Origin: a virus
IMG/VR virus record: IMGVR_UViG_3300017727_004667
Coordinates: 1 to 30,687 of that record
DNA: 30,687 nt
Direction: 5' to 3' (one strand)
Notes under the pieces: model-generated
What the model was told of the DNA's origin: nothing
The model's database searches: none
What the model saw: only the letters and a program-made list of their open reading frames with translations
In this document: piece by piece, positions 8,804-28,494 of the stretch
Layout: the number at the start of each line of letters is the position of its first letter
Numbering within the stretch: the stretch's first letter is position 1
Position numbers and translations under genes: made by a program

Positions 8804-8851
8804 GTGGTTACTCCATTATATAATCGATTATATGTAGTTTCCTACTGCTTA

Positions 8852-8859
8852 TATTTATC
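8852..8859 (-). promoter_or_regulatory. Late promoter of the virion protein gene
   Basis: Minus strand CGATAAATATAAG with the box at 8859-8852. The leader that follows contains an ATATAATCGATTATAT palindrome and the GGAG ribosome site. It is divergent from, and about 10 nt away from, the early promoter of uvsE. Confidence 0.75.
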
Positions 8860-8867
8860 GAAATCAG

Positions 8868-8896
8868 TTGACAATGGGTCCATTATATAATATAAT
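8868..8896 (+). promoter_or_regulatory. Early (sigma70-like) promoter of uvsE
   Basis: TTGACA (8868-8873), 17-nt spacer, TATAAT (8891-8896). The uvsE ATG is at 8903, 6 nt after the -10 box, so transcription would start at or next to the ATG. Confidence 0.75.
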
Positions 8897-8902
8897 ATCA
8901 GC

Positions 8903-9955: not shown

Positions 9956-9958
9956 ATT

Positions 9959-9975
9959 GACTCCGGAGTCTTTTT
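9959..9975 (+). terminator. Short terminator-like palindrome after uvsE
   Basis: GACTCCGGAGTC (9959-9970), a perfect 12-nt palindrome, is followed by TTTTT. The stem is short (4 bp with a 4-nt loop), so it is weak on its own. Confidence 0.5.
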
Positions 9976-9978
9976 GTG

Positions 9979-10077
9979 TTGACTGTTTGGGGAACACCGA
10001 GTTCCTTTACTATCTATCACATCTTAATGAGCGGTGAAATATCTATGTTGTCAACTGGTTCATTGCCAAACAGTTAA
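9979..10077 (+). ncRNA. Possible structured RNA element upstream of the ferredoxin gene
   Basis: No gene lies in 9956-10156. TTGACTGTTTGG (9979-9990) can pair over 12 positions (one G-U) with CCAAACAGTTAA (10066-10077). Directly after the first arm is a hairpin GGAAC-ACCGA-GTTCC (9991-10005). A competing pairing is possible: GTTGAC (9978-9983) with GTCAAC (10050-10055). Two mutually exclusive helices ahead of a ferredoxin gene would suit a regulatory leader, but I recognise no known riboswitch and tRNA features are absent. A further small hairpin, AACTAT/ATAGTT, is at 10101-10118. Confidence 0.35.
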
Positions 10078-10156
10078 TAATATTTAATCGTTTACTGGAA
10101 AACTATGCTGAAATAGTTTATTTTGAGTAAATATTGGTATTAAAAGGAGTTATGAT

Positions 10157-10519
10157 TTGACTTATGTTGTAAAAGGGGAATGTGTAGATTGTAAACATAC
10201 CACCTGTGTGAAAGTGTGTCCGGTTGACTGTTTCTTTGAATTAGAAAATACATTGGTTATAGATCCAAAGATTTGTATTGATTGTGCAATATGTGAACCA
10301 GAATGTCCAGTCAATGCTATTGTGAGTGATAGAAAACTAGCACCTGAAGACCAACACTGGCTTGACTTCAATGCGGAAATGTCACCATCTGGCGGAACAG
10401 ACTCTCCTGTTATTACCAAAGTTAAAGATCCAATGCCCACTTATGAAGAAGCGGCGTCTTATACTGCTGACGAACAATGGAGTAAAGTTAGCAGAATTCC
10501 ATACAAAGAAATCACATAA
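10157..10519 (+). CDS. fdxA: FdxA-type 7Fe ferredoxin
   Basis: A 120-residue soluble electron carrier of the seven-iron ([3Fe-4S] plus [4Fe-4S]) FdxA family. The cysteine pattern matches Azotobacter ferredoxin I with an offset of one: C9, C17, C21 and C50 for the 3Fe cluster, and C25, C40, C43 and C46 for the 4Fe cluster, with the extra C12 also kept. Strings such as KVCPVDCF, CIDCAICEPECP and the DFNAEMS region followed by KDPMP are typical of the full-length family. The start is TTG (10157), set 7 nt after AAAGGAG. An out-of-frame ATGATTTGA (10152-10160) overlaps the start. It needs Fe-S clusters, which ties it to the suf genes at 23499-28494. The redox partner is unknown. Confidence 0.9.
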   Translation: MTYVVKGECVDCKHTTCVKVCPVDCFFELENTLVIDPKICIDCAICEPECPVNAIVSDRKLAPEDQHWLDFNAEMSPSGGTDSPVITKVKDPMPTYEEAASYTADEQWSKVSRIPYKEIT

Positions 10520-10559
10520 ATATTACTTAAATATCTGCCAGAATTCCTGGCAAAAAAGG

Positions 10560-10588
10560 TTGACATTGACCCTATAATTCGTTATAAT
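10560..10588 (+). promoter_or_regulatory. Early promoter
   Basis: CAAAAAAGG precedes TTGACA (10560-10565), 17-nt spacer, TATAAT (10583-10588). A second TATAAT occurs at 10573 with the wrong spacing. It belongs to the same promoter family as those at 19882, 20588 and 28904, all with an A-tract and GG before the -35 box. Confidence 0.75.
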
Positions 10589-10622
10589 ATATGTATATTT
10601 TAACAAGGAAGGTAGGAATTAT

Positions 10623-11003
10623 ATGAGTAACTTAAACACACAAAATCAAAGCAAAGACAAGATCCATGTTATCCCTGGATATTCAATTGGTTCTTTTACT
10701 TGCTATAATGAGAACGAAGAAGATGGAAAATCAGTAAATATCCAACTTACTAGTTTAGAAGAAATGTGGTATGGACATGAAGAAAATATTGACCATCCTG
10801 AAGGTTCAGAATACCCAGTAAGTATTAATGTTCCTCACATGAAAGTGATGAGAGACAGAGTTATTGATAGTGTTCTTAATAGAACTGGTATCGATATTAG
10901 GGATTTTGATAGTATTATACATGCTACATCATCTCCAGGTAGAGATAAGCAAGGTAATATTATTGACCATGGCAACGAAAACATTATAAGGAATGTTGCC
11001 TAA
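10623..11003 (+). CDS. Hypothetical phage protein
   Basis: A 126-residue acidic, soluble protein with one Cys and no recognised domain. It starts MSNLNTQNQSKDKIHVIPGY and has a mixed alpha/beta look, including NVPHMKVMRDRVIDSVLNRT. An AAGGA ribosome site and a clear early promoter with a 34-nt leader precede it, so it is probably made soon after infection. The cell-wall hydrolase begins 22 nt after its stop and may be co-transcribed. Confidence 0.7.
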   Translation: MSNLNTQNQSKDKIHVIPGYSIGSFTCYNENEEDGKSVNIQLTSLEEMWYGHEENIDHPEGSEYPVSINVPHMKVMRDRVIDSVLNRTGIDIRDFDSIIHATSSPGRDKQGNIIDHGNENIIRNVA

Positions 11004-11025
11004 CAAAAAATAAGAGGAGAGGGCT

Positions 11026-11574
11026 ATGGAAACATTATTAGCAGTCTTAACAAGCATGATGATAAGTTATGCTCCGTACAATGTAAACGGTGTTGAGTTT
11101 ACAAAAGAAGAAGCATTTTGTCTAGCACAAAATGTTTTTATGGAAGCCAAAGGTGAAAACCTTGCAGGTAAATCAGCAGTTGCCCATGTAACTCTTAATA
11201 GAGTAAAACATTCAAAATATCCTAGCACCGTATGTGGTGTTACAAAACAAGCCAAACTACGAACTAACTGGAGAGGGTCTGATGTGCCTATTATAGGTAT
11301 GTGTCAGTTCAGTTGGTACTGTGATGGTAAGTCTGATAAAATCCAAGTTGTCTATGAAAAAGGATCAGCAAAAGGAAAACAGATTGGACCTAACATGGAA
11401 GCCTGGAAACAAAGTGTACAAGTTTCTTTGTTAGCATTAAAAGGTGTTACTATAGATCCAACAAGTGGTGCTACACATTATTACAACCATAATATCAGTA
11501 GTCCTAATTGGGGTCAAGTTTACCCTGTAGTTGCTATTCTGAGCAATCATACATTCTTAATTAGAAACGATTAA
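11026..11574 (+). CDS. SleB/CwlJ-type cell-wall hydrolase
   Basis: A 182-residue protein of the Hydrolase_2 (SleB/CwlJ) family of peptidoglycan hydrolases. The family core runs from residue 30: FCLAQNVFMEAKGE with probable catalytic E40, then GKSAVAHVTLNRVKHSKYP, TVCGV and CQFSWYCDGK, and THYYNHN near the end. The N-terminus METLLAVLTSMMISYAP is hydrophobic and could act as an export or anchor signal, though it lacks a positive charge. A strong GAGGAG ribosome site precedes the ATG. Together with the GH24 lysozyme this gives two wall-degrading enzymes; one may act in entry or as an alternative lysin. Confidence 0.85.
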   Translation: METLLAVLTSMMISYAPYNVNGVEFTKEEAFCLAQNVFMEAKGENLAGKSAVAHVTLNRVKHSKYPSTVCGVTKQAKLRTNWRGSDVPIIGMCQFSWYCDGKSDKIQVVYEKGSAKGKQIGPNMEAWKQSVQVSLLALKGVTIDPTSGATHYYNHNISSPNWGQVYPVVAILSNHTFLIRND

Positions 11575-11587
11575 AGCAGTAGTTTAA

Positions 11588-11595
11588 GATAAATA
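11588..11595 (+). promoter_or_regulatory. Late promoter of the nuclease gene
   Basis: GATAAATA (11588-11595) followed by CTCTTG, then a leader with a CAGGAG ribosome site 6 nt before the ATG at 11622. This is the clearest late promoter here with a conventional leader. Confidence 0.75.
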
Positions 11596-11621
11596 CTCTT
11601 GTAGGAAACACAGGAGTAATT

Positions 11622-12080
11622 ATGTACGAGTACAGATGTAAAGTCATCAAAGTAATTGATGGCGACACAGTCGATGTAGACATCGACTTAGGTTTTGATA
11701 TTATTATCAAAGGTGAAAGAGTGCGTATCATGGGAATTGATACACCAGAAAGTAGAACAAGAGACAAAGTTGAAAAGAAATTCGGTTTGGCAAGTAAGGC
11801 TAGATTGAAAGAACTTATTGGTGGTCGTTCAGGTCCTATTCTCAAAACACAGATTAATAGAAAAGGCGAAGACATGCGAGGCAAGTTTGGTCGTATCCTA
11901 GGTGACTTTGTTACTGATGATGGTAGACTTGTTACTGATATATTAGTTGAAGAAGGACATGCAGTTGCATACTTCGGAGGCAGTAAAGAAGAAATACAAG
12001 ACAAGCATATGGCAAACCGTAAAAAGTTAATCAGAGAAGGTTTGGTAAACGTAACTTTAGAAGAAGCCGGAATAGTATAA
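11622..12080 (+). CDS. Thermonuclease-like nuclease (SNase domain)
   Basis: A 152-residue single-domain staphylococcal-nuclease homologue that should cut DNA and RNA in a calcium-dependent way. The active-site residues are all present: VIDGDT with D15, RIMGIDTPE with R35, D40, T41 and E43, and GKFGR with R91 (R87 in the S. aureus enzyme). No signal peptide is seen, so it acts in the cytoplasm or in the virion. It is driven by a late GATAAATA promoter, which argues against a role in early host-DNA breakdown and for a packaged or late function. An AGGAG ribosome site is present. Confidence 0.85.
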   Translation: MYEYRCKVIKVIDGDTVDVDIDLGFDIIIKGERVRIMGIDTPESRTRDKVEKKFGLASKARLKELIGGRSGPILKTQINRKGEDMRGKFGRILGDFVTDDGRLVTDILVEEGHAVAYFGGSKEEIQDKHMANRKKLIREGLVNVTLEEAGIV

Positions 12081-12097
12081 CTTAAATAAAAGTTCTA

Positions 12098-12105
12098 ATT
12101 AAATA
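12098..12105 (+). promoter_or_regulatory. Possible late promoter
   Basis: ATTAAATA (12098-12105) resembles the late box (two mismatches). It ends 5 nt before the ATG at 12111, the same geometry as at 13788-13801, and there is no ribosome site, which is the reason for listing it. Confidence 0.35.
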
Positions 12106-12110
12106 TTCTT

Positions 12111-12716
12111 ATGCGTAAAACGTGGAAGAATATTATTGGTTCTTTATCTTTAGAAAAAGCAACATTTTGTGAACATGTTATTAAAGAACATGTGTCTCAA
12201 GATTCTGTTTGCTTGGAAATAGGAACATACTGTGGTAAGAGTGCATTACATTTACTTGAAGTAGGAAATCCCAAAAAACTTATTACTGTAGATAATTATT
12301 CAGAATTACAATCCACTGCAGGTTTGCCTGATGTATTTGAAGAAAATATCTTAGACATACCAACTGCAAAAATAAGCAATCCTAATACATACACTTTTGA
12401 AAAGAACGAAAAACTTTTTGCAGATTACCCGCAAGTAGAATTAATAAACGGACATACACCTCTTAAACTAAAATTACCAATATTAGATTACATTTATATA
12501 GATGGTGGACATACTTACGAACAAAAAGTTGCAGACTTAGAATGGGTATTTCAATATTGTAAAGATGGTACGGTGATTGTTTTAGATGATTGGTTCATGG
12601 AAGATGTGCAAAATGCAATAAAATATTTTTGTAAAGAATACAAGCAATCCTATGTTTTAAGTGAGCCTAATGAATTTAGAAATACAATGTCCAAAATAGT
12701 TGTAAAAATTGCTTGA
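12111..12716 (+). CDS. Class I SAM-dependent methyltransferase-like protein
   Basis: A 201-residue protein resembling the Methyltransf_24 / O-methyltransferase family. Motif I is VCLEIGTYCGKSALHLLEVG (about residues 35-54), followed by the acidic LITVDNYSE. A later YIYIDGGHTYEQ and VIVLDDWF fit the family's metal and substrate regions. The target (sugar, small molecule or protein) cannot be told. The ATG has no Shine-Dalgarno and lies 5 nt after a late-like box. The 3' end overlaps the -35 element of the next promoter. Confidence 0.75.
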   Translation: MRKTWKNIIGSLSLEKATFCEHVIKEHVSQDSVCLEIGTYCGKSALHLLEVGNPKKLITVDNYSELQSTAGLPDVFEENILDIPTAKISNPNTYTFEKNEKLFADYPQVELINGHTPLKLKLPILDYIYIDGGHTYEQKVADLEWVFQYCKDGTVIVLDDWFMEDVQNAIKYFCKEYKQSYVLSEPNEFRNTMSKIVVKIA

Positions 12717-12740
12717 CTTTTCATAACTATTCTGTATAAT
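12713..12740 (+). promoter_or_regulatory. Early promoter
   Basis: TTGACT (12713-12718), 16-nt spacer, TATAAT (12735-12740). The -35 box overlaps the stop codon of the methyltransferase gene. An AGGA ribosome site follows ahead of the ATG at 12763. Confidence 0.7.
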
Positions 12741-12762
12741 ACAAATATTACAGGATAGAATT

Positions 12763-13059
12763 ATGCTTATAGAAGTTATTAAAGAAGGCGAAGTAGTTAG
12801 TTGTAGGCTTACAACTGGTGAAGAACTAATCGCAAGACTAAAAAAAGATAGACGAGATAAAGACAATCTCGTGGAATTATCACAACCCCTCATAGTTGGT
12901 AGAAGTGCAGAAGGCTTTGGACTTATGCCATATATGATGACTATAAATCCTGAAAGTGCTGTAGAGATTAAAATGGAGCACATTTTAAGTATGCATAAGA
13001 CTAACGATGAGATTACTAAAGGATATCAAAAACAAACAAGCAAGATAGAAACATTGTAA
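12763..13059 (+). CDS. Conserved small phage protein, Sm-like pattern
   Basis: A 98-residue protein whose pattern (CRLTTGEELIARL near residue 14, then ELSQPLIV and GFGLMPYMMTINPESAVEIK) is familiar from small proteins of T4-like marine phages and suggests a small beta-barrel, Sm- or SH3-like fold. It starts an early-promoter unit with the small membrane protein and the QueD-like enzyme, joined by TAATG overlaps. Function unknown. Confidence 0.75.
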   Translation: MLIEVIKEGEVVSCRLTTGEELIARLKKDRRDKDNLVELSQPLIVGRSAEGFGLMPYMMTINPESAVEIKMEHILSMHKTNDEITKGYQKQTSKIETL

Positions 13060-13214
13060 TGGGTTTAGAAGAAGTACAAGGATACATATTAATATTTGCA
13101 CCTTTGGCTATGGCTATAGTGGCTTGTTCTATTTTTACACTACAAGATAAAAATATAAAAACTTATAGACTTGGTGAAATAGTAAAAGACAGTAAAACAG
13201 GAGACACAACATAA
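13059..13214 (+). CDS. Small single-pass membrane protein (51 residues)
   Basis: This short frame is open for 51 codons and is joined to both neighbours by one-base TAATG overlaps, which strongly supports it being real. It begins MGLEEVQGYILIFAPLAMAI, followed by VACSIFTL: one transmembrane segment (about residues 9-28), then a charged cytoplasmic tail rich in Lys. The VAC string resembles a lipobox, but the N-terminus is acidic, so a simple membrane anchor is more likely. Function unknown. Confidence 0.65.
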   Translation: MGLEEVQGYILIFAPLAMAIVACSIFTLQDKNIKTYRLGEIVKDSKTGDTT

Positions 13215-13693
13215 TGGTAAACAAAAGATTTTATTCAGGTAAAACTTATTCACATGCAACTGGACATAGTTGTGCATTTAGACAATGGAGAGCAGACAGC
13301 CATTGCAATTTAATACATGGATATGCATTACAGTTTGAACTTAAATTTGGTGGAGAACTAGATGACAGGAATTGGATTGTAGACTTTGGTGGACTAAAGC
13401 CACTTAAAGAATGGTTAAAATATATGTTTGACCATACCTATCTAGTTGCAGAAGATGATCCAGAGTTAGAAACAGTTAAAATGTTGCAAGAAAAAAATCT
13501 TATTGATATGAGACTTGTGCCAGCAGTTGGTTGTGAACGTTTTGCTGAACAAGTATTTGACTATGCACAAGACTTAGTTAATGATTTAACTGACGGTAGA
13601 TGTTGGGTACAAGAATGTACTGTTAGGGAACATGAACATAATAGTGCTACTGTTGAACGTAACGACCATCAAAAAATAACTTTCTCAGAATAA
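13214..13693 (+). CDS. queD: QueD-like 6-carboxy/6-pyruvoyl-tetrahydropterin synthase
   Basis: A 159-residue protein of the PTPS/QueD family, which makes 6-carboxy-tetrahydropterin on the path to preQ0 and queuosine-type 7-deazaguanines. The family core is SCAFRQWRADSHCNLIHGYA, with C31 as the likely nucleophile and H35 as a zinc ligand; DFGGLKPLK, FDHTYLV and VREHEHNSA also fit. The usual HGH is HGY (Y37), so one zinc His is replaced, a variant I recall in cyanophage homologues. No other preQ0 genes are in the window. It might feed tRNA or DNA base modification. It is coupled to the small membrane gene and followed by a good terminator. Confidence 0.8.
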   Translation: MVNKRFYSGKTYSHATGHSCAFRQWRADSHCNLIHGYALQFELKFGGELDDRNWIVDFGGLKPLKEWLKYMFDHTYLVAEDDPELETVKMLQEKNLIDMRLVPAVGCERFAEQVFDYAQDLVNDLTDGRCWVQECTVREHEHNSATVERNDHQKITFSE

Positions 13694-13709
13694 ACACTAA
13701 AACATACTG

Positions 13710-13733
13710 AAACCCCGTCTTAGGGGTTTTTTT
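13710..13733 (+). terminator. Rho-independent terminator
   Basis: AAACCCC-GTCTTA-GGGGTTT hairpin followed by a T run to 13733, just after the queD-like gene. Confidence 0.85.
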
Positions 13734-13787
13734 GTATTATATAGGTAGTTTATAATTTCAGTAATGTTTATAACCTTAAGAAAATAC

Positions 13788-13795
13788 GATAAATA
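13788..13795 (+). promoter_or_regulatory. Late promoter, leaderless geometry
   Basis: GATAAATA (13788-13795), then TTGAT and the ATG at 13801. A T4-like late start would fall on the A of the ATG. No ribosome site is present. Confidence 0.7.
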
Positions 13796-13800
13796 TTGAT

Positions 13801-15213
13801 ATGCTATTCGGTATATTAACATTATTGACTGCTCTTGCCATTGCCGGAGTTGCCGCCTGGTTCAGTATTGCTGGACTTATGGCAATTTTCAGTGCCGCCG
13901 CTATGCCCATTGCCATTATGGCTGGAACATTAGAAGTAGGCAAACTACTAACTGCAAGTTGGCTTTATAGATACTGGCATGAAACTTCTATATTACTTAA
14001 AACATATCTTTCTATAGCAGTCTTTATCTTAATGATTATTACAAGTATGGGTATCTTTGGATATCTTAGTAAAGCCCATTTGGATCAAGCAAGTGAAAGT
14101 GGAGATGCTTTTGCTATTGTAGAACGTATAGATGGACAAATAGGTAGACAAGAAAATAAGATTGCAACAATAGAAGACCGTATATTAGGTATAGGCGGAA
14201 CAGTTGATGTAAGTCAAAGTATAGCACAACAAGAAGAAATTAGAGATGGTGCATGGGAAAGAGTAAAAGGTGATATAGAATATGCACAAGGACAAATACA
14301 AAGCCTACGAGACCAACTAGGTGTATTAGACAAAGCAGTAAATGACCTAAGAAATAAAGGTGTTGAAGTAATTACAACAGATGAAGGTGGATTATTTCAA
14401 GGAGATACTACAGAAAAAATAGATTATGTTGCACAGGCTAATGACCTATTTGCATCTCAAAAGGATCAACGTGTAAGTATTAAAGAAGATATTGATAAAC
14501 AACAAGACAACATAGATGGCTATAGAGCCCAAGCACAAAAAACAATTGACAATGCTAATGCAGAGATTAATAGATTAAGAAGCAGTAATACAGAGCAAGT
14601 AGATGCTAATCTATTAAAGATAGAAGAATATAACAATCAAATAGATAATATCTATATAGAGATAGCAACACTTAAAGATGAAAAATATGATGCAGAAAGT
14701 GTTGTAAGAACATTAGAAAAAGAAGTAGGACCAATTAAGTATGTAGCCCAATTACTTTTTGGAGGAGATAGCGAAGACTTATTGGATAAAGCAGTACAAG
14801 TATTCATTCTTATGCTTGTATTTGTGTTTGATCCACTAGCAGTTATGCTAGTTATCGCGGCGAACCAAACGTTATTACGTTATGGTATCAACTTAGAAAA
14901 GACAGGTCCTGATATTAGAGAAGTATTAGAAAAAGATTATGGTTCAATAAAAGAACCAAGTACACCAAGTGCGGTAGATGATGCCGCTGATGTTATGTCA
15001 GGTTATAAACAACCTACGCCTATAATAGTGGAAAAAGAAGTTATTAAAGAAGTGCCTGTTGAGGTCATCAAAGAAGTTGAAGTTGAAAGAGTTGTCGAAA
15101 AAGAAGTAGAAGTAGAAGCAGATGTAGATTTAAGTACACCACCTGCTATTAAAGAATTAGAAAAACGACTTGCAAAGAAACTAAAGAAAGATGGCAAAAA
15201 AGATAACAGTTAA
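13801..15213 (+). CDS. Large membrane protein with coiled coil and EKEV repeat tail
   Basis: A 470-residue protein resembling a conserved membrane protein of T4-like marine phages. Hydrophobic segments lie at about residues 1-26, 24-45, 66-90 and 331-356, with LEVGKLLTASWLYRYW between the second and third. Residues 100-310 form a long coiled coil, which the membrane topology could place outside or inside. The C-terminal tail has an imperfect repeat rich in Val, Glu and Lys (409-440, for example KEVPVEVIKEVE) and a basic end. The same repeat occurs in the next gene, which overlaps this one by 23 nt. Function unknown; perhaps a membrane-tethered scaffold for replication or assembly. Confidence 0.75.
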   Translation: MLFGILTLLTALAIAGVAAWFSIAGLMAIFSAAAMPIAIMAGTLEVGKLLTASWLYRYWHETSILLKTYLSIAVFILMIITSMGIFGYLSKAHLDQASESGDAFAIVERIDGQIGRQENKIATIEDRILGIGGTVDVSQSIAQQEEIRDGAWERVKGDIEYAQGQIQSLRDQLGVLDKAVNDLRNKGVEVITTDEGGLFQGDTTEKIDYVAQANDLFASQKDQRVSIKEDIDKQQDNIDGYRAQAQKTIDNANAEINRLRSSNTEQVDANLLKIEEYNNQIDNIYIEIATLKDEKYDAESVVRTLEKEVGPIKYVAQLLFGGDSEDLLDKAVQVFILMLVFVFDPLAVMLVIAANQTLLRYGINLEKTGPDIREVLEKDYGSIKEPSTPSAVDDAADVMSGYKQPTPIIVEKEVIKEVPVEVIKEVEVERVVEKEVEVEADVDLSTPPAIKELEKRLAKKLKKDGKKDNS

Positions 15214-15952
15214 AGAAGCACTAAACAATTTAAACACAAAGTATGCTAACACGTTAGTAATGTTAGATGATGCTTTGGATTTGATAGAAGATTTAGAAAC
15301 GAAACTGGCTGAGAAGCCTAAGGAAGTGCAAGTTGAAATCGAGAAAATTGTTGAAGTTGAGAAACAGATCCCGGTCGAAAAAGAGACAGTGGTCACTATC
15401 GAAAAGGAAGTCCCAGGACCAGAACGAATCGTTGAAGTTGAAGTCCCCGGACCAGAACGAATCATAGAAAAAGAAGTTATCAAAGAGGTAGTAGTCGAAG
15501 TACCTGTAGAAAAAATAGTAGAAAAAGAAATAGTCAAAGAAGTTCCTGTTGAAGTAATTAAAGAGGTTGAAAAAGAAGTACACAAAGTAATACCAGGACC
15601 AGAAAGAGTTGTTGTACGAACAGATAACAGGGAAATAGAACGCCTTACAAAGTTAGTTGCTGAATTAGAAAACCAATTAGAACAACGACCTATTAAAGAA
15701 AAGATTGTTGAAGGCCCTAGAAGAGCAGTAAGAGTTGAATTACCAAATACCGGAGACCTTAGAACTGCGGCAACATTAATTGCAAATAGTGAAATGAATG
15801 CAGATGATTTATCAACAAATGAAATACTCAAAATGTTGCAACAAATAAGTGAAGAAGATGTAAATAAACAGTTAGGAGGGTTTTGGGCTGTTCCATTACC
15901 AAACGATACTGATAACGATGATACTGATACAAACTATGTTACGAGGAAATAA
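15191..15952 (+). CDS. Repeat-rich elongated protein, partner of the membrane protein
   Basis: A 253-residue protein in three parts: a helical N-terminus (1-40), a Val/Glu/Lys/Pro repeat region (43-143) with three PGPER units (75-79, 86-90 and 135-139), and a C-terminal coiled coil plus acidic tail. The repeat shares KEVPVEVIKEVE with the C-terminus of the upstream membrane protein, so the two probably interact or arose by domain sharing. It overlaps that gene by 23 nt in another frame, and its stop overlaps the clpX start (TAATG). The antisense frames here are open only because of the repeat composition. Confidence 0.75.
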   Translation: MAKKITVKEALNNLNTKYANTLVMLDDALDLIEDLETKLAEKPKEVQVEIEKIVEVEKQIPVEKETVVTIEKEVPGPERIVEVEVPGPERIIEKEVIKEVVVEVPVEKIVEKEIVKEVPVEVIKEVEKEVHKVIPGPERVVVRTDNREIERLTKLVAELENQLEQRPIKEKIVEGPRRAVRVELPNTGDLRTAATLIANSEMNADDLSTNEILKMLQQISEEDVNKQLGGFWAVPLPNDTDNDDTDTNYVTRK

Positions 15953-17220
15953 TGCCCGGTAATAAAGATAGCGAACAAAATTTAAACTGTAGTTTTTGTG
16001 GTAAAAAGCGAACTGAAGTAAAGAAACTCATCGCTGGTCCCAGTTCATACATCTGTAATGAATGTATTAGCATCAGTCACAAAATAATCAACGAAGAAGA
16101 TCCTTTAGAAGATTTACTATTTGAGGATATTCCTACGCCTGAAGAAATCAAAGCACATCTAGATGAATATGTAATCAGCCAAGAATATGCAAAAGAAATA
16201 TTGTCTGTTTGTGCATATAATCATTACAAAACAATTTATAATGAAAGTGATACTGAAATAGAAAAAAGTAATATTATTATTTTAGGTAATACAGGAACAG
16301 GTAAAACACTATTAGCAAGAACACTTGCAGAAAAGTTAAGTGTGCCTTTTGCTATTGCAGATGCTACAACATTAACTGAAGCAGGATATGTTGGAGAAGA
16401 TGTAGAAAGCATGTTAGAACGTTTACTTAATATGTGTGATTGGAATTTAGAAGTAGCACAAAAAGGTATAGTATTCATAGATGAGATAGATAAAAAGGCT
16501 CGTAAGGGCGAGTCTAACACCGGCACAAAGGATATTAGTGGGCAAGGTGTACAACAAGCACTATTAAGACTTATAGAAGGTACAACTGTTAAAGTATCTT
16601 CAAATGGTTCTAAACGTATGGATCAATTTGTAGAATTTGATACAACTAACGTACTATTCATATGTAGTGGTGCATTTGTTGGATTAGAAAAACAAATTAA
16701 TACAAGAACAAATAAAAAGAATATAGGGTTCAATAAGACCCTCAAAGACACAACTAAAAAAGATAATTGGCAACACAAAGTAGTACATGATGACTTAATA
16801 AGTTTTGGTCTAATACCAGAACTTGTTGGAAGACTGCCAAACATTGTTCCTTTAGAACCTTTAACTGAAAGTGATATGAAATCAATTTTAAAATCATCCA
16901 AAGCAAGTGTTCTTCCACAGGTTAAAAAACTATTAGAGTTTGACGATATTGAATTAGAATTTAACGAAGAGTATATAAATGATATTGCCAAAATGGCAAG
17001 TAAAACAAAAACTGGTGCTAGAGGATTAAAATCTATTGTAGAAAATAGTCTACATAATGTTATGTTTAGAGCACCCAAACTCAAAGAAAATGGAGTTAAA
17101 GCAATAAGGTTTAACAAATATCCTACAAAAGATGTTGACACATACCCTATTTTCATATATACTAACGGTAATGAAGAATCAGATAATGATTACAAAATAA
17201 AGATTAGAGGTAAAAGTTGA
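15952..17220 (+). CDS. clpX: ClpX, AAA+ unfoldase
   Basis: A 422-residue, full-length ClpX homologue, the hexameric unfoldase that feeds proteins to ClpP. The N-terminal zinc domain has C13, C16, C35 and C38. The AAA+ part shows Walker A GNTGTGKT (112-119), pore loop GYVG (145-148), Walker B IVFIDE (173-178), GLIPELVGRLP and sensor-2 KTGARGL. The NIGF string matches the IGF loop that docks ClpP, so use of host ClpP is plausible; no clpP is seen here. A GAGGA ribosome site precedes the start, which overlaps the previous stop. It is co-directional with bS21 and bacterioferritin. The other Clp factor, ClpS, is at 23197. Confidence 0.93.
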   Translation: MPGNKDSEQNLNCSFCGKKRTEVKKLIAGPSSYICNECISISHKIINEEDPLEDLLFEDIPTPEEIKAHLDEYVISQEYAKEILSVCAYNHYKTIYNESDTEIEKSNIIILGNTGTGKTLLARTLAEKLSVPFAIADATTLTEAGYVGEDVESMLERLLNMCDWNLEVAQKGIVFIDEIDKKARKGESNTGTKDISGQGVQQALLRLIEGTTVKVSSNGSKRMDQFVEFDTTNVLFICSGAFVGLEKQINTRTNKKNIGFNKTLKDTTKKDNWQHKVVHDDLISFGLIPELVGRLPNIVPLEPLTESDMKSILKSSKASVLPQVKKLLEFDDIELEFNEEYINDIAKMASKTKTGARGLKSIVENSLHNVMFRAPKLKENGVKAIRFNKYPTKDVDTYPIFIYTNGNEESDNDYKIKIRGKS

Positions 17221-17642
17221 AAGATAAACAGTATGGCAAACAACAGGGTAAAAAAATAACCCAAAGTTGGAACTCGAATAAACGAAAAGAACAACCTAAA
17301 AAAGACACACATTATCTTGATAGATTTAATAGTGCTGTCGAAGTTAGAAACAACGACGTAAATAAGGCATTAAGAGTTTTGAAAAAGCGATTAGAAAAAG
17401 CAGAATTTCAAAAAGAATTAGCAAAGCAACAATATTATGAAAAGCCTAGTGCAAAACGTAATAGAAAAAAGAAAGCGGCAAAGAAAAGATGGGAAAAGTA
17501 TGTTAGAGAAGCCGAAGCAAGAGGCGAGTTCAAACAATACATGCCCACTGGTACAAAATGGATGAAATCCAAACGTAAATCTAGACGTGTCAGAGACTAC
17601 AATGATAAGATTGCCGCCATGCAGAGAAGTCGTGGTCATTAA
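17217..17642 (+). CDS. rpsU: Ribosomal protein bS21 with extensions
   Basis: A 141-residue protein whose centre (about 41-93) matches bS21 of the small ribosomal subunit: VEVRNNDVNKALRVLKKRL, then QQYYEKPSAKRNRKKKAAKK, including the typical YEKPS-x-KR string. Ordinary bS21 has about 70 residues; this one adds a basic N-terminal 40 and a C-terminal 48 residues of unknown role. bS21 sits near the anti-Shine-Dalgarno and affects initiation, so a phage copy could steer host ribosomes. The start is TTG at 17217, 6 nt after AGAGG and overlapping the clpX stop (TTGA). Its own stop overlaps the next ATG. Confidence 0.85.
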   Translation: MKDKQYGKQQGKKITQSWNSNKRKEQPKKDTHYLDRFNSAVEVRNNDVNKALRVLKKRLEKAEFQKELAKQQYYEKPSAKRNRKKKAAKKRWEKYVREAEARGEFKQYMPTGTKWMKSKRKSRRVRDYNDKIAAMQRSRGH

Positions 17643-18418
17643 TGTCAAAAACGGTAGTCATAGTTAGCGGGGGATTTGACCCACTACATTCAGGACATAT
17701 AAGTTACTTAGAGTCAGCAAAAAGACTGGGCGACAAATTAGTTGTTGCATTAAACAGTGATGCATGGTTAAGTAGAAAAAAAGGCAGGCCCTTTATGCCA
17801 TTTGAAGAGAGGGCAGGAATTATAGAAAGACTAGACATGGTAGACAATGTTTGGGGTTTCGATGATAAAGACGGAAGTGCTAAAAAGGCCCTTGAACAAG
17901 CCAAGAAGGCTTACACAACAGATAGAATTATCTTTTGCAACGGAGGTGATAGAACAAAAGATAACATTCCAGAAATGGAAGTCGAGGGTATAGAGTTTGA
18001 ATTTGGTGTCGGTGGCATAGACAAATCAAACAGTAGCAGTTGGATATTGAAGGAATGGCAATACCCAACAACACGAAGAGTTTGGGGCGAGTTTAGTGAC
18101 TTGTTCCATGATGAAGCAGTTCGTGTAAAGGAGTTGATAATAGAGCCAGGGAAAGGCATAAGTTATCAACGGCACTTCAAGAGAAGTGAAATATGGTTTT
18201 GCAGTAAAGGTCAATGCGATATAAAGTATAGTGCCAGCAATCCAGATAATTTTATAGAGTTTACTTTAAAGACAGATGAGAATTTCCACGTTAAAGCAAA
18301 TGAGTGGCATCAAATTGTAAATAGAAGTAAGAAACCATGTCATATTATAGAGATACAATATGGCGAAGAAACCACTGAAGAAGATATTGAACGTCTTGAA
18401 TACTACAACGGAGAATGA
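17642..18418 (+). CDS. Nucleotidyltransferase-cupin fusion
   Basis: A 258-residue two-domain protein. Residues 1-135 are a cytidylyltransferase-like nucleotidyltransferase: SGGFDPLHSGHI with H16 and H19 of the HxGH motif, RKKGRPFMPFEERAGIIERL, and CNGGDR. Residues 150-258 are a cupin similar to type II mannose-6-phosphate isomerase C-termini: KELIIEPGKGISYQRHFKRS, EIWFCSKGQCDIKY, NEWHQIVNRS and IEIQYG. The pairing suggests activation of a phosphosugar or polyol. The gene follows bS21 with a one-base overlap and overlaps the bacterioferritin start. Substrate unknown; the two other nucleotidyltransferases in the window could work in related steps. Confidence 0.82.
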   Translation: MSKTVVIVSGGFDPLHSGHISYLESAKRLGDKLVVALNSDAWLSRKKGRPFMPFEERAGIIERLDMVDNVWGFDDKDGSAKKALEQAKKAYTTDRIIFCNGGDRTKDNIPEMEVEGIEFEFGVGGIDKSNSSSWILKEWQYPTTRRVWGEFSDLFHDEAVRVKELIIEPGKGISYQRHFKRSEIWFCSKGQCDIKYSASNPDNFIEFTLKTDENFHVKANEWHQIVNRSKKPCHIIEIQYGEETTEEDIERLEYYNGE

Positions 18419-18858
18419 TGGAATTGAAAGAGTTAAACGAAAGTAAAGTATGCGATATACTTAATACAATAGTGGAATATGAGATGGCAGGTGTTGTTAG
18501 ATACGCACACAGTTCTCTAATGGTTACTGGTCCATACAGGATACCTATTGTGCAATTCTTACAGGAACAAGCAAACGAAAGTCTAGCACATGCCTTACAA
18601 GCCGGAGAACTTATTACAGGCTTAGACGGACATCCTAGTCAAATTATTGCACCCATTGATGAATCACATGACCATTCTATTTTGAGAATACTTGAAGAGA
18701 GTTTAGAACATGAAACTTTTGCAGTAGATTTATATAAAGATTTATTGCAGGAAGTAGAAGGTGCCAGTGTGTATTTAGAAGAATATGCTCGAGGACAAAT
18801 TGGTCAAGAAGAACAACACGCATTAGAAATTAAAAAAATGTTAAAAGACTTTGCATGA
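18415..18858 (+). CDS. Bacterioferritin-like iron storage protein
   Basis: A 147-residue four-helix ferritin-fold protein of the bacterioferritin-like type common in Proteobacteria: VVRYAHSSLM, RIPIVQFLQEQANESLAHA, GELITGLDGHPS, LEESLEHET and YLEEYARGQIGQEEQHALE. Likely di-iron ligands are E23, E55 or a neighbour, H59, E100, E132/E133 and H135. It should oxidise and store iron and guard against Fenton damage. Two ATGs (18415 and 18418) are possible; the second has better spacing from GGAG. The operon neighbours are unrelated in function, but with ferredoxin and the suf operon it forms an iron theme. Confidence 0.85.
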   Translation: MMELKELNESKVCDILNTIVEYEMAGVVRYAHSSLMVTGPYRIPIVQFLQEQANESLAHALQAGELITGLDGHPSQIIAPIDESHDHSILRILEESLEHETFAVDLYKDLLQEVEGASVYLEEYARGQIGQEEQHALEIKKMLKDFA

Positions 18859-22498: not shown

Positions 22499-22942
22499 AT
22501 GAATAAGCAAATCCGATTCACAACCGAATCACTATCCCCACTATATAAAATGTCCATAGGCTTCGACAGACTTGCAGAGCAATTCTTTAACGATCCTACG
22601 TTCACAAATAATGCAACTGGGTATCCACCCTTTAATATCAGCAAAGGCAAAGGAACTGATTTATATGAAATTACTTTGGCTGTTGCAGGTTTTAAAAAGG
22701 ACGACATCGAACTTGAAATCGAAGATGGAGTACTGAAAATTTCAGGTACATCTGGTGTATTAGATTCTGATGATACTGAATACTTACACAAAGGTATTGC
22801 TGAAAGAAATTTTGTTAGAACTTTTAAACTAGCAGAATTTGTTGAAGTTGCAGAAGCCAAACTAGAAGACGGTATTTTAAGAGTTTCACTGTTCAGGAAT
22901 GTGCCTGATGCAATGAAACCACAAAAGATTAAAATATCATAA
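22499..22942 (+). CDS. hsp20: Small heat-shock protein (Hsp20, IbpA-like)
   Basis: A 147-residue holdase chaperone with the alpha-crystallin domain at about residues 45-135: GYPPFNISKG, YEITLAVAGFKKDDIELEIE, VLKISG and the GILRVSLFRNVPDAMKP C-terminus. Hsp20 genes are frequent in T4-like marine phages and probably help capsid folding. The start matches the family (LSPLYKMSIGFDRLAEQFF). It is preceded by the ROSE-like hairpin and the long leader, and followed by a strong terminator that lies just 4 nt before the bL33 gene, so transcription of the downstream suf genes needs read-through or other promoters. Confidence 0.92.
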   Translation: MNKQIRFTTESLSPLYKMSIGFDRLAEQFFNDPTFTNNATGYPPFNISKGKGTDLYEITLAVAGFKKDDIELEIEDGVLKISGTSGVLDSDDTEYLHKGIAERNFVRTFKLAEFVEVAEAKLEDGILRVSLFRNVPDAMKPQKIKIS

Positions 22943-23196: not shown

Positions 23197-23499
23197 ATGA
23201 CAGAACAAGTTGAACAGAAGACTAGAACAAACACCGCACTAAAATATCCACCTAGGTATGATGTTATCGTATACAATGACGATTTTACTCCAGTAGAGTT
23301 TGTAATTAAACTGTTAGTTGAAATCTTCAATAAGAATATTAAGTCTGCAAAAGATTTAACAATAGAAGTACATGAGTCAGGTTCAGCAGTTGCAGGAACA
23401 TACAGTCACGAAATTGCAGAACAAAAATGTGCAGAAGCAACCACAGTTGCAAGAGCTCAAGGTCATCCTTTACAATTAAAAGTTAAACAGGTTGATTAA
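23197..23499 (+). CDS. clpS: ClpS, N-degron adaptor
   Basis: A 100-residue ClpS homologue, which brings substrates with destabilising N-termini to ClpAP. Motifs: [20 protein letters not shown] (N27, D28 bind the alpha-amino group), VHESG (H59) and the [10 protein letters not shown] helix, ending HPLQLKV. The gatekeeper Met of E. coli ClpS (M40) is Val33 here, which may widen or shift specificity. The phage carries ClpX but no ClpA is visible, so ClpS would act with host ClpA. It overlaps the sufB start by one base (TAATG). Confidence 0.92.
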
Positions 23500-24956
23500 T
23501 GAGTATAGATAATTATAATGAAAAATACTATAAAGAAGGATTCGTAACTGATTTAGAAAACGAAACCTTTCCCAAAGGTTTGAATGAAAACATAATAACG
23601 AACATTAGTTTATTAAAAGAAGAGCCAGAATGGTTACTGGAATATAGACTAAAAGCATTTAAAAGATGGGAGCAAATGAGTGAACCCAATTGGAGTGAAC
23701 TAGATTATGATCCTGTTGACTATCAAGAATTAAGTTACTACTCAGCACCAAAGAAATTTGATAAAGACGACATACCACCAGAAATATTTGAGACATTTGA
23801 AAAGTTAGGTGTACCTTTACATGAACGTGATGCTTTATTAGGCTTAGATACAGAAAAGCCAAAACAAGAAAACCTTATTCCTACAGTAGCCGTAGATGCA
23901 GTATTTGATAGTGTTAGTGTAGCAACAACATTTCAAGCAGAGTTAAAGAAACACGGAATTATATTTTGTAGCATAAGCGAAGCAGTAAAAGACCACGAAG
24001 AATTAGTTAAACAATACTTAGGTAGTGTAATACCATACACAGACAATTACTTTGCTACACTGAACTCTGCTGTATTCACAGACGGTACTTTTGTTTATAT
24101 CCCTAAAGGTGTTAGATGCCCTATGGAACTAAACACATACTTTAGAATAAATGCTAGAAATACAGGTCAATTTGAACGTACATTAATAATTGCAGATGAA
24201 GGTAGTTATGTAAGTTACCTAGAAGGTTGTACTGCACCAGCATATGATGAAAACACATTACATGCCGCCTGTGTTGAGTTAATTACAAAAGACGATGCAG
24301 AAATAAAATATTCTACAGTACAAAATTGGTACCCAGGTAATGAAGATGGAGTAGGTGGAGTTTATAATTTTGTAACAAAACGTGCAAAATGTGAAGGCAA
24401 AAACTCTAAAGTTAGTTGGACTCAAGTTGAAACAGGTTCGGCAGTAACTTGGAAATATCCTAGTTGTATATTAAAAGGCGAAGGAAGTATTGGAGAGTTT
24501 TTTAGTGTTGCAGTAACAAAAGGCAAACAACAAGCAGATACAGGAAGTAAAATGATACACTTGGGTAAAGACACCAAGAGCACCATTATATCCAAAGGTA
24601 TTAGTTTTGGGGATAGCACAAATACATATAGAGGTTCTGTTAAAATAAACCCAGGAGCCAAAAATGCTTCAAACTATACTAAGTGTGATAGTCTAATGTT
24701 GCAAGATAGTAGAGCATTAACTATTCCTTATGTTACAAGTCAAAATGATAGTGCTATGGTAGAGCATGAAGCAAGTGCAGGTAAGATTAGTGAAGAACAG
24801 ATGTATTACCTAGCAACAAGAGGATTTAGTGAAGATGATGCAATGAATTTGGTTGTAAATGGATTTTGTAAAGATGTATTCCAAAAACTACCACTAGAGT
24901 TTGCCGCAGAAGCCAATCAACTATTGGCTGTCCAACTAGAAGGTGCAGTTGGATAA
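23499..24956 (+). CDS. sufB: SufB, Fe-S cluster scaffold
   Basis: A full-length (485 residues) SufB, which with SufC and SufD forms the SufBC2D scaffold that builds Fe-S clusters. Key positions are kept: [24 protein letters not shown] (C244), and NYTKCDS with C396 (C405 of E. coli, the proposed sulfur acceptor), then VEHEAS with E422, H423 and E424, and [20 protein letters not shown]. The start overlaps the clpS stop by one base. Base composition and overlap style match the neighbours, so the gene is well settled in this genome. The sufC promoter begins in the short gap just after it. Confidence 0.95.
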
Positions 24957-24959
24957 TAA

Positions 24960-24988
24960 TTGACAATACACATATAAGGTAGTATAAT
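24960..24988 (+). promoter_or_regulatory. Early promoter of sufC, leaderless geometry
   Basis: TTGACA (24960-24965), 17-nt spacer, TATAAT (24983-24988), then AACGGA and the sufC ATG at 24995. Transcription would begin at or within one base of the ATG. Confidence 0.72.
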
Positions 24989-24994
24989 AACGGA

Positions 24995-25690
24995 ATGTTA
25001 AAATTAAAAGATTTTTCTGTAGAACATATTCTAGATAATGTCACAACAACATTTGATGTTGGTAAGACTTATGTTGTAATGGGCAGTAATGGTGTAGGTA
25101 AAAGTACACTACTACATGGCATTATGGGAAGACCTGACTTAAATGTTTCCGGTGATATTACTTTTATGGGTAGTGACCTTTTAGAATTAGAAACAGATGA
25201 AAGAGCAAGACTAGGAATGTTTGTTGGATTTCAAGCACCAACAAGTGTGCCAGGATTAAGTAATTTTCAATTTATGAAACAAGCATTAAATATTTCAGGA
25301 AAAGATATTGCAGAAACATTAAGAAATTTTAAAGAGTTAAGTGCAAACTTAAACTTGCCTGATAATTGGGATAAGAGAAACTTAAACACAGATGCTAGTG
25401 GTGGAGAGAAAAAGAAGAACGAGTTAATACAGATGAGTATGCTCAACACTAAATTAGCAATGCTTGATGAACCAGATAGTGGATTAGACGTTGATGGTAT
25501 TAAAGCATTAATAGAGCAACTTAATAATTGGCGTACTGAAAACAACACATTGATTGTTGTTACACATTACCAAAAATTAGTTGAAGGCTTAAACCCAGAC
25601 AAAGTATTAATCTTAAAGAAAGATGAAGTTCTAACAGGCGGTATGGAACTTGCAGACAAAATATTTAGTCAAGGGTTTGAAAGTGTATAA
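24995..25690 (+). CDS. sufC: SufC, ABC-type ATPase
   Basis: A 231-residue ABC ATPase of the SUF complex; it drives conformational change of SufB and SufD. Walker A is GSNGVGKST (30-38), the Q-loop region reads VGFQAPTSVPG, the signature is ASGGEKKKNE (about 133-143), Walker B is LAMLDEPDSGLD (154-165) and the H-loop is H191. The EKKKNE after SGG is typical of SufC. It has its own promoter whose -10 box ends 6 nt before the ATG and no ribosome site. The last 8 nt overlap the sufD GTG start. Confidence 0.95.
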   Translation: MLKLKDFSVEHILDNVTTTFDVGKTYVVMGSNGVGKSTLLHGIMGRPDLNVSGDITFMGSDLLELETDERARLGMFVGFQAPTSVPGLSNFQFMKQALNISGKDIAETLRNFKELSANLNLPDNWDKRNLNTDASGGEKKKNELIQMSMLNTKLAMLDEPDSGLDVDGIKALIEQLNNWRTENNTLIVVTHYQKLVEGLNPDKVLILKKDEVLTGGMELADKIFSQGFESV

Positions 25691-26960
25691 AAATTTATTC
25701 TATAGAGAAACATTAGAACCTACAAATTATTCAGATAGTTATTACACTATCAAAGATTTATTTGACTTTGTTACAGGTGAAAATACTAAAACAAAAGATT
25801 ATCATCATCTAAAACATAAATTAAATAATTTTTATGATGGTTATAATAACAACATAGAATATATTTCAAATATAGGATTACCAAGTTCTAAATTAGAACA
25901 GTTTAATTTTTCAAATATACATAAGTTATATAATAAAGAAATACTTTGGTCAAATGAACCAAGTCAAAAATCATATCTTGCAGACTTAGAACCTTTTGAA
26001 CAAGTAGCATTCAAAAAGAACACAATTTTGTTTAATGACGGTATGGTTTATCCTAGTAACGACTTAGGGGTAAGGAAACCTTTTCAACTACAAATTTTAG
26101 ACCAAATAAACGTAAACAGAAACAAACAAGATGAATATGTAAAGTTAGTCAAACAAAGTGAAAACTTTTCTAATATAACATACGCATTTTCTCCATTCCT
26201 AAATACTATTATTGTGCCATCCGGTGCTAATAGTAACTTTAAGAAAAATCCTATACATATAAATTATGTTAATAAGAATTCACAAGGAATATTAGAATGT
26301 AATACAAATATAGTAGACATTCAACATAAAGCAAAAGTTCACATAAAAGAAAATGTTAAATTACAATCAGGACAAATGAATAACATAATTTACATTGTCA
26401 GAGAAAACTGTGAACTAGTATTAGATAGGGTTACAAATGACTTTGGTGGCTTCGGAGTATTTGATAGTAAGTTTATTTGCCACCCCAATAGTAAAGTTAC
26501 AATTAATTTTAAAAATACAGGTTCAGAATATTATCAAGAAAACTTTTATTTTGATTTAACAACAAACGTAGACTTGTCTTTAAATGGCAGAAACAACATT
26601 TATAAAGGACATGAATATCATCAGTTTGTTCATGTAGACAGTAAAAGTTTAGATAACAAAAGTATTATAGACATTAAGAATGTTGGAAACGAAAATGCTA
26701 GTACAAGTTTCATAGGTAGATTTGATGTAAGTCCAAATAGTGTAGGGTTTAATGGTCACATGAAAAATGAGAATTTAATGTTGACTCCAAAGACTAAAAT
26801 GCACTCCAGACCCATATTAGATATACATACCAAAGAAATTGAATGTTCACATGGTTGTACCATAAGTAATATAGATAAAAGCAAATTATATTATTTGCAA
26901 AGTCGAGGCTTATCAAAAGACATAGCCGAAGACGTATTAGTAAGTAGTTTTCTATGTTAA
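25683..26960 (+). CDS. sufD: SufD, SufB paralogue of the SUF scaffold
   Basis: A 425-residue SufD, the partner of SufB that supports iron entry. The N-terminal half is divergent; the C-terminal beta-helix region is clear: LQSGQMNNIIYIVRENCELV, FIGRFDVSPNSVGFNGHMKN, KMHSRPILDIHTKEIECSHG (His near 390 matches H360 of E. coli SufD) and KLYYLQSRGLSKDIAEDVLV. The GTG at 25683 is chosen because it gives an 8-nt overlap with sufC; a TTG at 25650 is the only longer option. It overlaps sufS by 7 nt. Confidence 0.9.
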   Translation: MYKNLFYRETLEPTNYSDSYYTIKDLFDFVTGENTKTKDYHHLKHKLNNFYDGYNNNIEYISNIGLPSSKLEQFNFSNIHKLYNKEILWSNEPSQKSYLADLEPFEQVAFKKNTILFNDGMVYPSNDLGVRKPFQLQILDQINVNRNKQDEYVKLVKQSENFSNITYAFSPFLNTIIVPSGANSNFKKNPIHINYVNKNSQGILECNTNIVDIQHKAKVHIKENVKLQSGQMNNIIYIVRENCELVLDRVTNDFGGFGVFDSKFICHPNSKVTINFKNTGSEYYQENFYFDLTTNVDLSLNGRNNIYKGHEYHQFVHVDSKSLDNKSIIDIKNVGNENASTSFIGRFDVSPNSVGFNGHMKNENLMLTPKTKMHSRPILDIHTKEIECSHGCTISNIDKSKLYYLQSRGLSKDIAEDVLVSSFLC

Positions 26961-28168
26961 AAAGTTATAAAAAAGCAAAAGATATTAAACAAATTAGGAA
27001 TTGTTTTCCTAGTTTAGCATACAGTAATTTGACATACTTGGACAATGCCGCAAGTAGTCAAACTGTTGATAGTTCAATTAAGGCGGTTAGTGATTATCAC
27101 TATAACTATAGAGCAAATGTTCATAGGGGAGATTTTAAAACTAGCACCATTGCAAGTGAGAAATATGATGAAGCAAGAGTAGAAGTTGCAAAACTTATAA
27201 ATGCTGAACCACATGAGATTGCTTTTACAAATGGAACAACTGCAAGTTTGAATATGATTGCAGACTGGACACCCTTAGAGTCTACTGTAATATTAACTGA
27301 AGTAGAACATCACAGTAACATCTTACCTTGGATGCAACAAGGCAGGACAGTATCTAATGAACAATTAATTGTAGTACCAAGTAATGATGATGGAAATGTA
27401 GATGTTAATATTTGGTATGAAACAGTAAAAGAGAACCCTGGAAGTATTTGTAGTTTTTTAACTCAAAGTAATTTTACAGGACAAGAGTTACCATGGCAAC
27501 AAATGATAATGATTGCTAAAGAACATGATTGTGAAGTAGTTATAGATGCTTGCCAAAGTATAGGGCATAGACAAATTGATGTCAAAAAGAACGATATAGA
27601 TTGGATGGCATTCAGTGGTCATAAGATGTTTGCAAGTACAGGTACAGGTATTTTATATCACAAAGATGGATTTGATGATATGCAAAGTTGGTTAGGTGGC
27701 GGCACAGTAAGCCAATGTGATTTTAATACATTTACATTACATAGAGGACCTGAAAGAATGGAAGCCGGTACACCAAATGTAGCAGGAGTTCACAGTTTGG
27801 GTGCGGCGGCAAAATGGATAAATGAAATCACATATGATGAAATACACGAATGTGAAACAGAATTTTTTAATATGGTAAAAGACAAAGGATTGTTCGATAT
27901 CGAACAACTAGAACTTATTGGACCAATAGCACCAAGAAGTGTTTTTAGTTTTAAAGTACAAGGAACAAGTCCAAGTGATTTAGCAGGATTTTTAGACATG
28001 CAAGATGTCTGTGTTAGAACGGGCCATATGTGTGCCTATCCGGCTAGTGCAAGGTACACAAACAATGAAGGAATTTTACGAGTTAGTTCAGCACCATACA
28101 ATGATGAACACGATTGCGTAAAATTAGTTGAGGGACTATGGCAGGCGATAGAAAAGATGAAACTGTAG
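26954..28168 (+). CDS. sufS: SufS, type II cysteine desulfurase
   Basis: A 404-residue PLP enzyme that removes sulfur from cysteine and passes it to the SUF scaffold. H119 (EVEHHSNILPW) stacks on PLP, D198 and Q201 (IDACQS) bind it, K224 (FSGHKMFA) forms the Schiff base, and C360 in RTGHMCAYP is the active Cys of group II. MEAGTPNVAG is also typical. All catalytic residues are present, so it should work. No SufE or SufU is seen, so a host partner, or the low basal rate alone, must serve. It overlaps sufD (7 nt) and the DUF59 gene (31 nt). Confidence 0.95.
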   Translation: MLKSYKKAKDIKQIRNCFPSLAYSNLTYLDNAASSQTVDSSIKAVSDYHYNYRANVHRGDFKTSTIASEKYDEARVEVAKLINAEPHEIAFTNGTTASLNMIADWTPLESTVILTEVEHHSNILPWMQQGRTVSNEQLIVVPSNDDGNVDVNIWYETVKENPGSICSFLTQSNFTGQELPWQQMIMIAKEHDCEVVIDACQSIGHRQIDVKKNDIDWMAFSGHKMFASTGTGILYHKDGFDDMQSWLGGGTVSQCDFNTFTLHRGPERMEAGTPNVAGVHSLGAAAKWINEITYDEIHECETEFFNMVKDKGLFDIEQLELIGPIAPRSVFSFKVQGTSPSDLAGFLDMQDVCVRTGHMCAYPASARYTNNEGILRVSSAPYNDEHDCVKLVEGLWQAIEKMKL

Positions 28169-28494
28169 GTCCACCAGAAGAGTTACAGGACCAATTAGTA
28201 GAACAAATTATAGCAAACTTGCGTAGAGTTTACGACCCAGAGTTAAACTTAAATGTTTATGACTTGGGTTTGATATATGAAGTAGCAGTAAACAAAGAAT
28301 ATGATGCACAGGTTATAATGACACTTACCACACCAAACTGTCCTGCGGCAGAAATTATTCCAATGGAAGTAGAATTTGCCACTAGAGCAGTTGAATGTGT
28401 AAACAAGGTAAATGTTGTTTTAACATTTGATCCACCATGGGACCCCCACATAATGGTTAGTGATGAGGGAAAATACCAATTAGGAATTCTATGA
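28138..28494 (+). CDS. sufT: DUF59/MIP18-family Fe-S maturation protein (SufT-like)
   Basis: A 118-residue protein of the DUF59/MIP18 family, which in bacteria (SufT, PaaD) helps Fe-S transfer to target proteins. The family strings are plain: VYDPELNLNVYDLGLIYEVA (about 31-50), MTLTTPNCPAAEIIP with conserved C68, and VVLTFDPPWDPHIM. In many Alphaproteobacteria sufB-C-D-S is followed by such a gene, and the order here is the same. It overlaps the end of sufS by 31 nt, so the two are translationally coupled, and its stop overlaps the next start by 4 nt. Confidence 0.88.
   Translation: MAGDRKDETVGPPEELQDQLVEQIIANLRRVYDPELNLNVYDLGLIYEVAVNKEYDAQVIMTLTTPNCPAAEIIPMEVEFATRAVECVNKVNVVLTFDPPWDPHIMVSDEGKYQLGIL

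Follow-up and report, generated by a model that had tools for sequence, protein, structure and literature searches.

The window analysed here, a stretch of 30,687 bases that makes up the entire IMG/VR record IMGVR_UViG_3300017727_004667, is best read as a fragment from an uncultured marine T4-like phage. It carries a SUF operon for iron–sulfur (Fe–S) cluster assembly together with a ferredoxin gene, fdxA, and a gene for a ferritin-like protein (Table 1). A previous reading of the letters alone (hereafter the sequence-only reading) had placed SUF genes in the same genome as the other two, and Pfam and NCBIfam searches confirm sufB, sufC, sufD, sufS and sufT, which form a tight, coupled run (23499–28494) directly behind hsp20 and clpS.

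Table 1. Iron-related genes of the window and the neighbours named in the text
Feature	Coordinates	Strand	Evidence
fdxA, predicted 7Fe-type [3Fe-4S][4Fe-4S] ferredoxin, 120 amino acids, TTG start	10157..10519	+	NCBIfam NF045490 119 bits; Azotobacter FdI best solved relative
clpX	15952..17220	+	NF003745 503 bits (cut-off 359)
Predicted ferritin-superfamily protein, DPSL-like, not bacterioferritin, 147 amino acids	18415..18858	+	PF00210 56 bits; PDB relatives 2qqy, 8w1d, 9qq4, 2vzb
hsp20, small heat-shock protein	22499..22942	+	PF00011, phrog_432
clpS, Clp adaptor; stop/start overlap with sufB	23197..23499	+	PF02617 96 bits
sufB, scaffold subunit	23499..24956	+	NF008773 812 bits (cut-off 717)
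sufC, ATPase	24995..25690	+	TIGR01978 231 bits (cut-off 212.8)
sufD, scaffold partner; start uncertain, 25650–25683	25683..26960	+	PF01458 115 bits
sufS, cysteine desulfurase	26954..28168	+	TIGR01979 325 bits (below cut-off 475); aligned with solved cysteine desulfurases/SufS
sufT (DUF59), maturation factor	28138..28494	+	PF01883 59 bits; TIGR02945 112 bits

The window encodes the SufB, SufC and SufD scaffold and the SufS desulfurase together. SufB and SufC pass their NCBIfam cut-offs, whereas SufD and SufS pass those of Pfam but not those of NCBIfam. The catalytic motifs are conserved: in an alignment with E. coli SufB (5awf), Cys396 in ‘KCDS’ is retained; SufC carries a Walker A motif (GSNGVGKST) and an ABC signature (SGGE); the C-terminus of SufD aligns with that of E. 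coli SufD, including the CSHG histidine; and SufS has Lys224 and Cys360 at its active-site motifs. As in bacterial SUF (E. coli sufABCDSE), B, C, D and S stand in operon order, and the phage lineage also has E and T. The phage version differs in its diverged SufD (116 bits against an NCBIfam cut-off of 222), in a SufE gene distant from the operon and in the A-type carrier, for which searches of the window’s lineage gave no match. No SufE or SufU was found within the 30.7-kb window, but the near relatives G003, G020, G029, G030/G043 and G031 encode SufE above cut-off, approximately 22–28 kb from sufB, so the window’s phage probably carries it beyond the window’s ends.

The ferredoxin gene begins at a TTG codon preceded by AAGGAG, and its product appears to be a 7Fe ferredoxin of the FdxA/AvFdI type. 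Among solved structures, the best relatives are without exception Azotobacter FdI (E 1e-25), with which it aligns over residues 3–98 and shares the cysteine pattern; its C-terminal tail is somewhat longer than that of AvFdI, and its score of 119 bits lies below the NCBIfam FdxA_Protbact cut-off of 135, which seven of its relatives exceed. All nine of its cysteines (Cys 9, 12, 17, 21, 25, 40, 43, 46 and 50) are retained in every one of the 27 complete viral copies. Cys 9, 17 and 50 and Cys 21, 40, 43 and 46 align to AvFdI, and Cys 12 and 25 are retained too; on the AvFdI scheme, presumably seven of the nine would bind the 3Fe and 4Fe clusters. The gene, type and place given by the sequence-only reading therefore stand, but its ‘all eight cluster Cys’ become nine cysteines with seven presumed ligands.

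The ferritin-like gene overlaps both the preceding and the following gene. Its product scores 56 bits against Pfam Ferritin (cut-off 24.5), and its best solved relatives, which it matches at superfamily level over almost its full length, are DPS-like and short bacterioferritin-type proteins (PDB 8w1d, 2qqy, 2vzb and 9qq4). In an alignment, E23, H59, E100, E132 and H135 match five of six canonical di-iron positions. Helix B reads ESLAH, with glutamate four residues and serine three residues before the histidine, so that E-x3-H replaces the usual ExxH (E-x2-H). This glutamate, serine and histidine are invariant among 48 viral and cellular ferritin-like sequences, and the ESxxH form is also found in close cellular homologues (SAR86, PS1, OCS116 and Luminiphilus). 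No bacterioferritin model was matched in an NCBIfam search, and ESLAH lacks the heme-ligand methionine of the bacterioferritin helix-B motif E-M-x-H. The protein had been called bacterioferritin-like with di-iron ligands; on these comparisons we class it as a DPSL-like member of the ferritin superfamily and not as a bacterioferritin. A 61-residue open reading frame with a CxC...CxxC pattern in contig L178 (21008–21193), a phage record without the ferritin-like gene, was considered as a candidate Bfd-like (bacterioferritin-associated) ferredoxin and rejected for want of Pfam support. Separately, in phage contigs L016–L018, L023, L025, L034–L037 and L039 the ferritin-like gene adjoins that of the tail lysozyme and shares its strand, and no SUF genes were found in the records searched.

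These genes sit in a conserved viral setting. In IMG/VR scans the ferritin-like gene turned up at 52 loci, FdxA at 45 and SufB at 24, and a lineage-specific anchor gene (13801–15213), blind to the iron genes, returned 80 loci. The iron/SUF block is syntenic across dozens of independent IMG/VR contigs, with the common order lysozyme, g194, uvsE, FdxA, cell-wall hydrolase, nuclease, QueD-like, anchor and ClpX, followed by S21-like, cytidylyltransferase, ferritin-like, porin-like, hsp20, clpS and sufBCDST. In the window, minus-strand genes, a T4-type tail lysozyme among them, lie to the left of the ferredoxin, and the DNA of this left side resembles named records only over short stretches, the records being those of cyanophages and further marine phages. 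The gene for the T4 capsid protein, gp23, is not in the window; it shares a record with the homologous locus in G030 and is also present in G050. T4 late-promoter-like TATAAATA sites occur no more often than expected by chance.

The named records themselves call for care. The ferritin-like gene has no match among named phages, and FdxA and SufB have few matches in named phage records; the records concerned are of other types, and many consist of bacterial DNA. The genome of Microcystis phage MaAM05 (MW495066.1), considered as an independent phage with sufB and a ferredoxin, was rejected because the genes around these two are bacterial housekeeping genes (pgi, ilvD, panB and hemW); deposited as a complete phage genome, it is probably a mis-deposited bacterial contig. 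SufB matches in Listeria, Staphylococcus and Enterococcus ‘phage’ records were left out. Several named records with SufB being plainly bacterial in this way, one might suspect that the window or its relatives are contaminated with bacterial DNA as well. Synteny already refutes this, the genes adjoining phage genes such as the tail lysozyme across dozens of independent contigs; the viral-only SufB sequences and the gp23 gene in the same record in G030 likewise speak against contamination, and we give it practically no weight.

The sequence-only reading had held the joint presence of SUF, FdxA and the ferritin-like gene to be more telling than any one of them and had proposed a survey of related phages. 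Of 50 records searched in full, 19 contain SufB above cut-off, 24 contain FdxA and 35 contain a Ferritin-domain protein above cut-off. Where the region behind clpS could be read and lacked the operon, a record was called SUF-minus. FdxA is present in all 14 decidable SUF-plus records (the window included, and some of them near-copies) and in none of the 8 SUF-minus records (naive Fisher 3e-6), 4 of which (G025, G037, G044 and G047) extend far enough upstream, as inferred from contig ends, to exclude a shifted FdxA place. Counting three short SUF-plus contigs without FdxA against the association gives 1.5e-4. These three (G011, G018 and G034; 24–57 kb) were rejected as counter-examples: in their kin G013, FdxA is upstream of the ferritin-like gene by 34 kb, farther than these short contigs reach. 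The link between SUF and FdxA thus recurs beyond the chance of one genome, with the same genes in the same order on many independent contigs. The ferritin-like gene, by contrast, is also present in the SUF-minus relatives G025, G038, G039 and G365; it is more widespread than SUF and not specifically tied to it. Because it occurs in SUF-minus relatives and nests with gammaproteobacterial copies, the set of three reduces to a pair, SUF and FdxA, plus a more widespread gene.

Shared ancestry could produce such a pairing if the block had been acquired once and then co-inherited, its genes having unrelated uses. The single gene order in most relatives fits this account, as does an independent-pairs test on the ClpX tree, in which only 2–3 independent contrasts, all concordant, are available, so that 0.05 cannot be reached; the tree-aware test is weak because the block is largely co-inherited. 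The association is above chance by the naive count, but the tree-aware count cannot by itself make it significant. However, FdxA has been relocated in G013, G026 and G027, yet G027 carries both FdxA and SUF with 34 kb between FdxA and sufB, so linkage is not required for the pairing. FdxA and SUF also occur together in G042, G088, G050 and G081 in arrangements unlike the window’s, and the purifying selection described below is a further point against idle cargo, which we regard as improbable. Divergent phages with FdxA inside or beside the SUF operon are stronger support for the pairing than the tree-aware counts.

The fullest set among them is that of G042 (L182 (L230, L231), 8760–17751), in the order sufA-fdxA-sufT-grx-sufE-rpiB-like-sufS-sufD-sufC-sufB, with a 2Fe-2S ferredoxin and an FNR-like reductase just past it and ClpS after the reductase; its glutaredoxin is monothiol (CGFS) and its SufD is short. 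The large T4-like G050 (L124, 235,561 bases) has gp23, two A-type carriers, FdxA and a SUF operon with glutaredoxin and SufE. By eye only, the ferritin-domain protein of G050 looks Dps-like, and a DNA polymerase was identified there in the same way.

Selection and descent give a second view of the block. Median ratios of nonsynonymous to synonymous substitution (dN/dS) are 0.098 for FdxA, 0.117 for the ferritin-like gene and 0.124 for SufB, all below those of the lysozyme (0.161) and g194 (0.186), so that these three genes are under strong purifying selection. The viral SufBs fall together on one side of a branch, apart from the cellular ones (support 89), and are at most 68% identical to those of 274 sampled gammaproteobacterial genomes; five alphaproteobacterial genomes carry SufB at 64–66%. 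The cellular homologues of the ferritin-like protein (67–77%) come nearly all from SAR86, PS1, OCS116 and other marine proteobacteria and have no surrounding phage genes. In a tree, the viral copies nest with marine gammaproteobacterial ones, with weak inner support; several such bacteria are involved, and a host assignment from ferritin homology was rejected. Close relatives of the ferritin-like protein are encoded on SAR86-type chromosomes, and SufB was found in none of 14 genomes titled SAR86. On this basis, phages might replace host Fe–S assembly with a phage-run SUF line in hosts that have no SUF, shifting cluster supply during infection from host to virus, but we consider this unlikely.

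We favour the reading, with a probability of roughly 0.62, that these genes form a phage-run module for Fe–S assembly and electron supply, and that the ferritin-like protein buffers iron partly independently of it. SufS would draw sulfur from cysteine and pass it to SufE, which near relatives encode; the SufB–SufC–SufD scaffold would assemble Fe–S clusters, driven by ATP; and SufT may hand them to clients when demand is high. FdxA could supply low-potential electrons to assembly or to cluster enzymes, while the ferritin-like protein would oxidise and buffer loose iron in the infected cell, keeping it usable without damage. The clients would include a radical SAM protein and similar enzymes of the phage; those for iron itself would include the di-iron ribonucleotide reductase and further iron enzymes, and host proteins kept running while infection proceeds may be served as well. 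In G003, the candidate iron or Fe–S clients are NrdA/NrdB, a radical SAM protein, a fatty acid desaturase, TauD and a deformylase. If these parts make one working pathway, the phage may benefit from it. The sequence-only reading had proposed that, in iron-poor seawater, collecting and reusing iron from the host might profit such a phage.

The main rival, which fits the evidence nearly as well, is that the genes chiefly help an infected cell to go on functioning through oxidative and protein-folding stress, iron supply not being the point. SUF would then serve as an oxidant-tolerant Fe–S system and the ferritin-like protein would clear free iron, while Hsp20, ClpS/ClpX/ClpA and peroxiredoxin would deal with damaged proteins and peroxides. 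The position of SUF directly behind hsp20 and clpS suits this proposal. So do the SUF-minus relatives L029, L020, L022, L188 and L193, in which a lone SufS-like cysteine desulfurase and/or a peroxiredoxin takes the operon’s place behind clpS, as well as G003, which has ClpA and a peroxiredoxin approximately 9 kb from sufB. In two SUF-minus relatives, G039 and G047, SufE and an A-type carrier are found elsewhere. The pairing of FdxA with SUF, however, points to cluster production and not to general protection, as does the entire assembly and redox chain of G042 (SufA, Grx, SufE, ferredoxin and FNR-like reductase). We consider stress protection possible but doubtful as the main function; it may overlap with Fe–S supply, and both can hold.

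Several results weigh against the Fe–S supply module. First, the ferritin-like site is non-canonical at helix B, and its gene is found without SUF or FdxA. Second, an A-type carrier (PF01521) was not found in the window or its near relatives, although it is present in the divergent G042 and G050, and no SufE was found across 130 kb of G027; such phages would depend on host parts. SufA itself is not universal among SUF systems. Third, sufC, sufD, sufS and sufT evolve faster than sufB (dN/dS 0.22–0.36). Finally, there is the shortage of independent contrasts on the ClpX tree.

Other genes of the window and its relatives deserve mention. A ribosomal protein S21-like gene (phrog_21469; 17217–17642) lies between clpX and the cytidylyltransferase gene. 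At 20695–21339, the phage encodes an outer-membrane-like protein of the Gcw_chp family, which we take to be TorF-type; it has an apparent signal peptide and is kept in near relatives. The phage-encoded Clp set comprises ClpX and ClpS in the window and a ClpA-like ATPase in G003 (104638–106836).

Clustered Fe–S genes in T4-like marine phages are already known. Genes for A-type carriers, IscU, glutaredoxin, PaaD and radical SAM enzymes have been described in T4-like genomes of marine viruses (mSphere 2017, PMC5332604), with SAR86 suggested as host for one of these viruses and earlier sufA/iscU reports cited; a virome study of an oxygen-minimum zone reported sufE and nifU and no sufS (PMC8940887). 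Like the phages of that 2017 report, those described here are marine T4-like phages that gather several Fe–S genes. They differ in having sufBCDS(E)T, FdxA and a ferritin-like protein, whereas the passages of PMC5332604 consulted describe no SUF scaffold operon, and its main text does not use the words ferredoxin and ferritin. Carriers, IscU and glutaredoxin had been known in marine phages as single genes. A literature search, with subscription papers mostly outside its reach, turned up no earlier account of phages that combine a SUF scaffold operon with FdxA and a ferritin-like gene, and nothing on phage SUF or phage ferritin beyond the studies cited. The phages with SUF and FdxA are thus a much more complete version of a known tendency. 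Fe–S supply is a step in which these phages invest several kilobases, in a near-complete SUF line and a ferredoxin of their own and, in G042, in still more parts, and it becomes testable whether Fe–S clusters are what limits the production of phages in surface water poor in iron.

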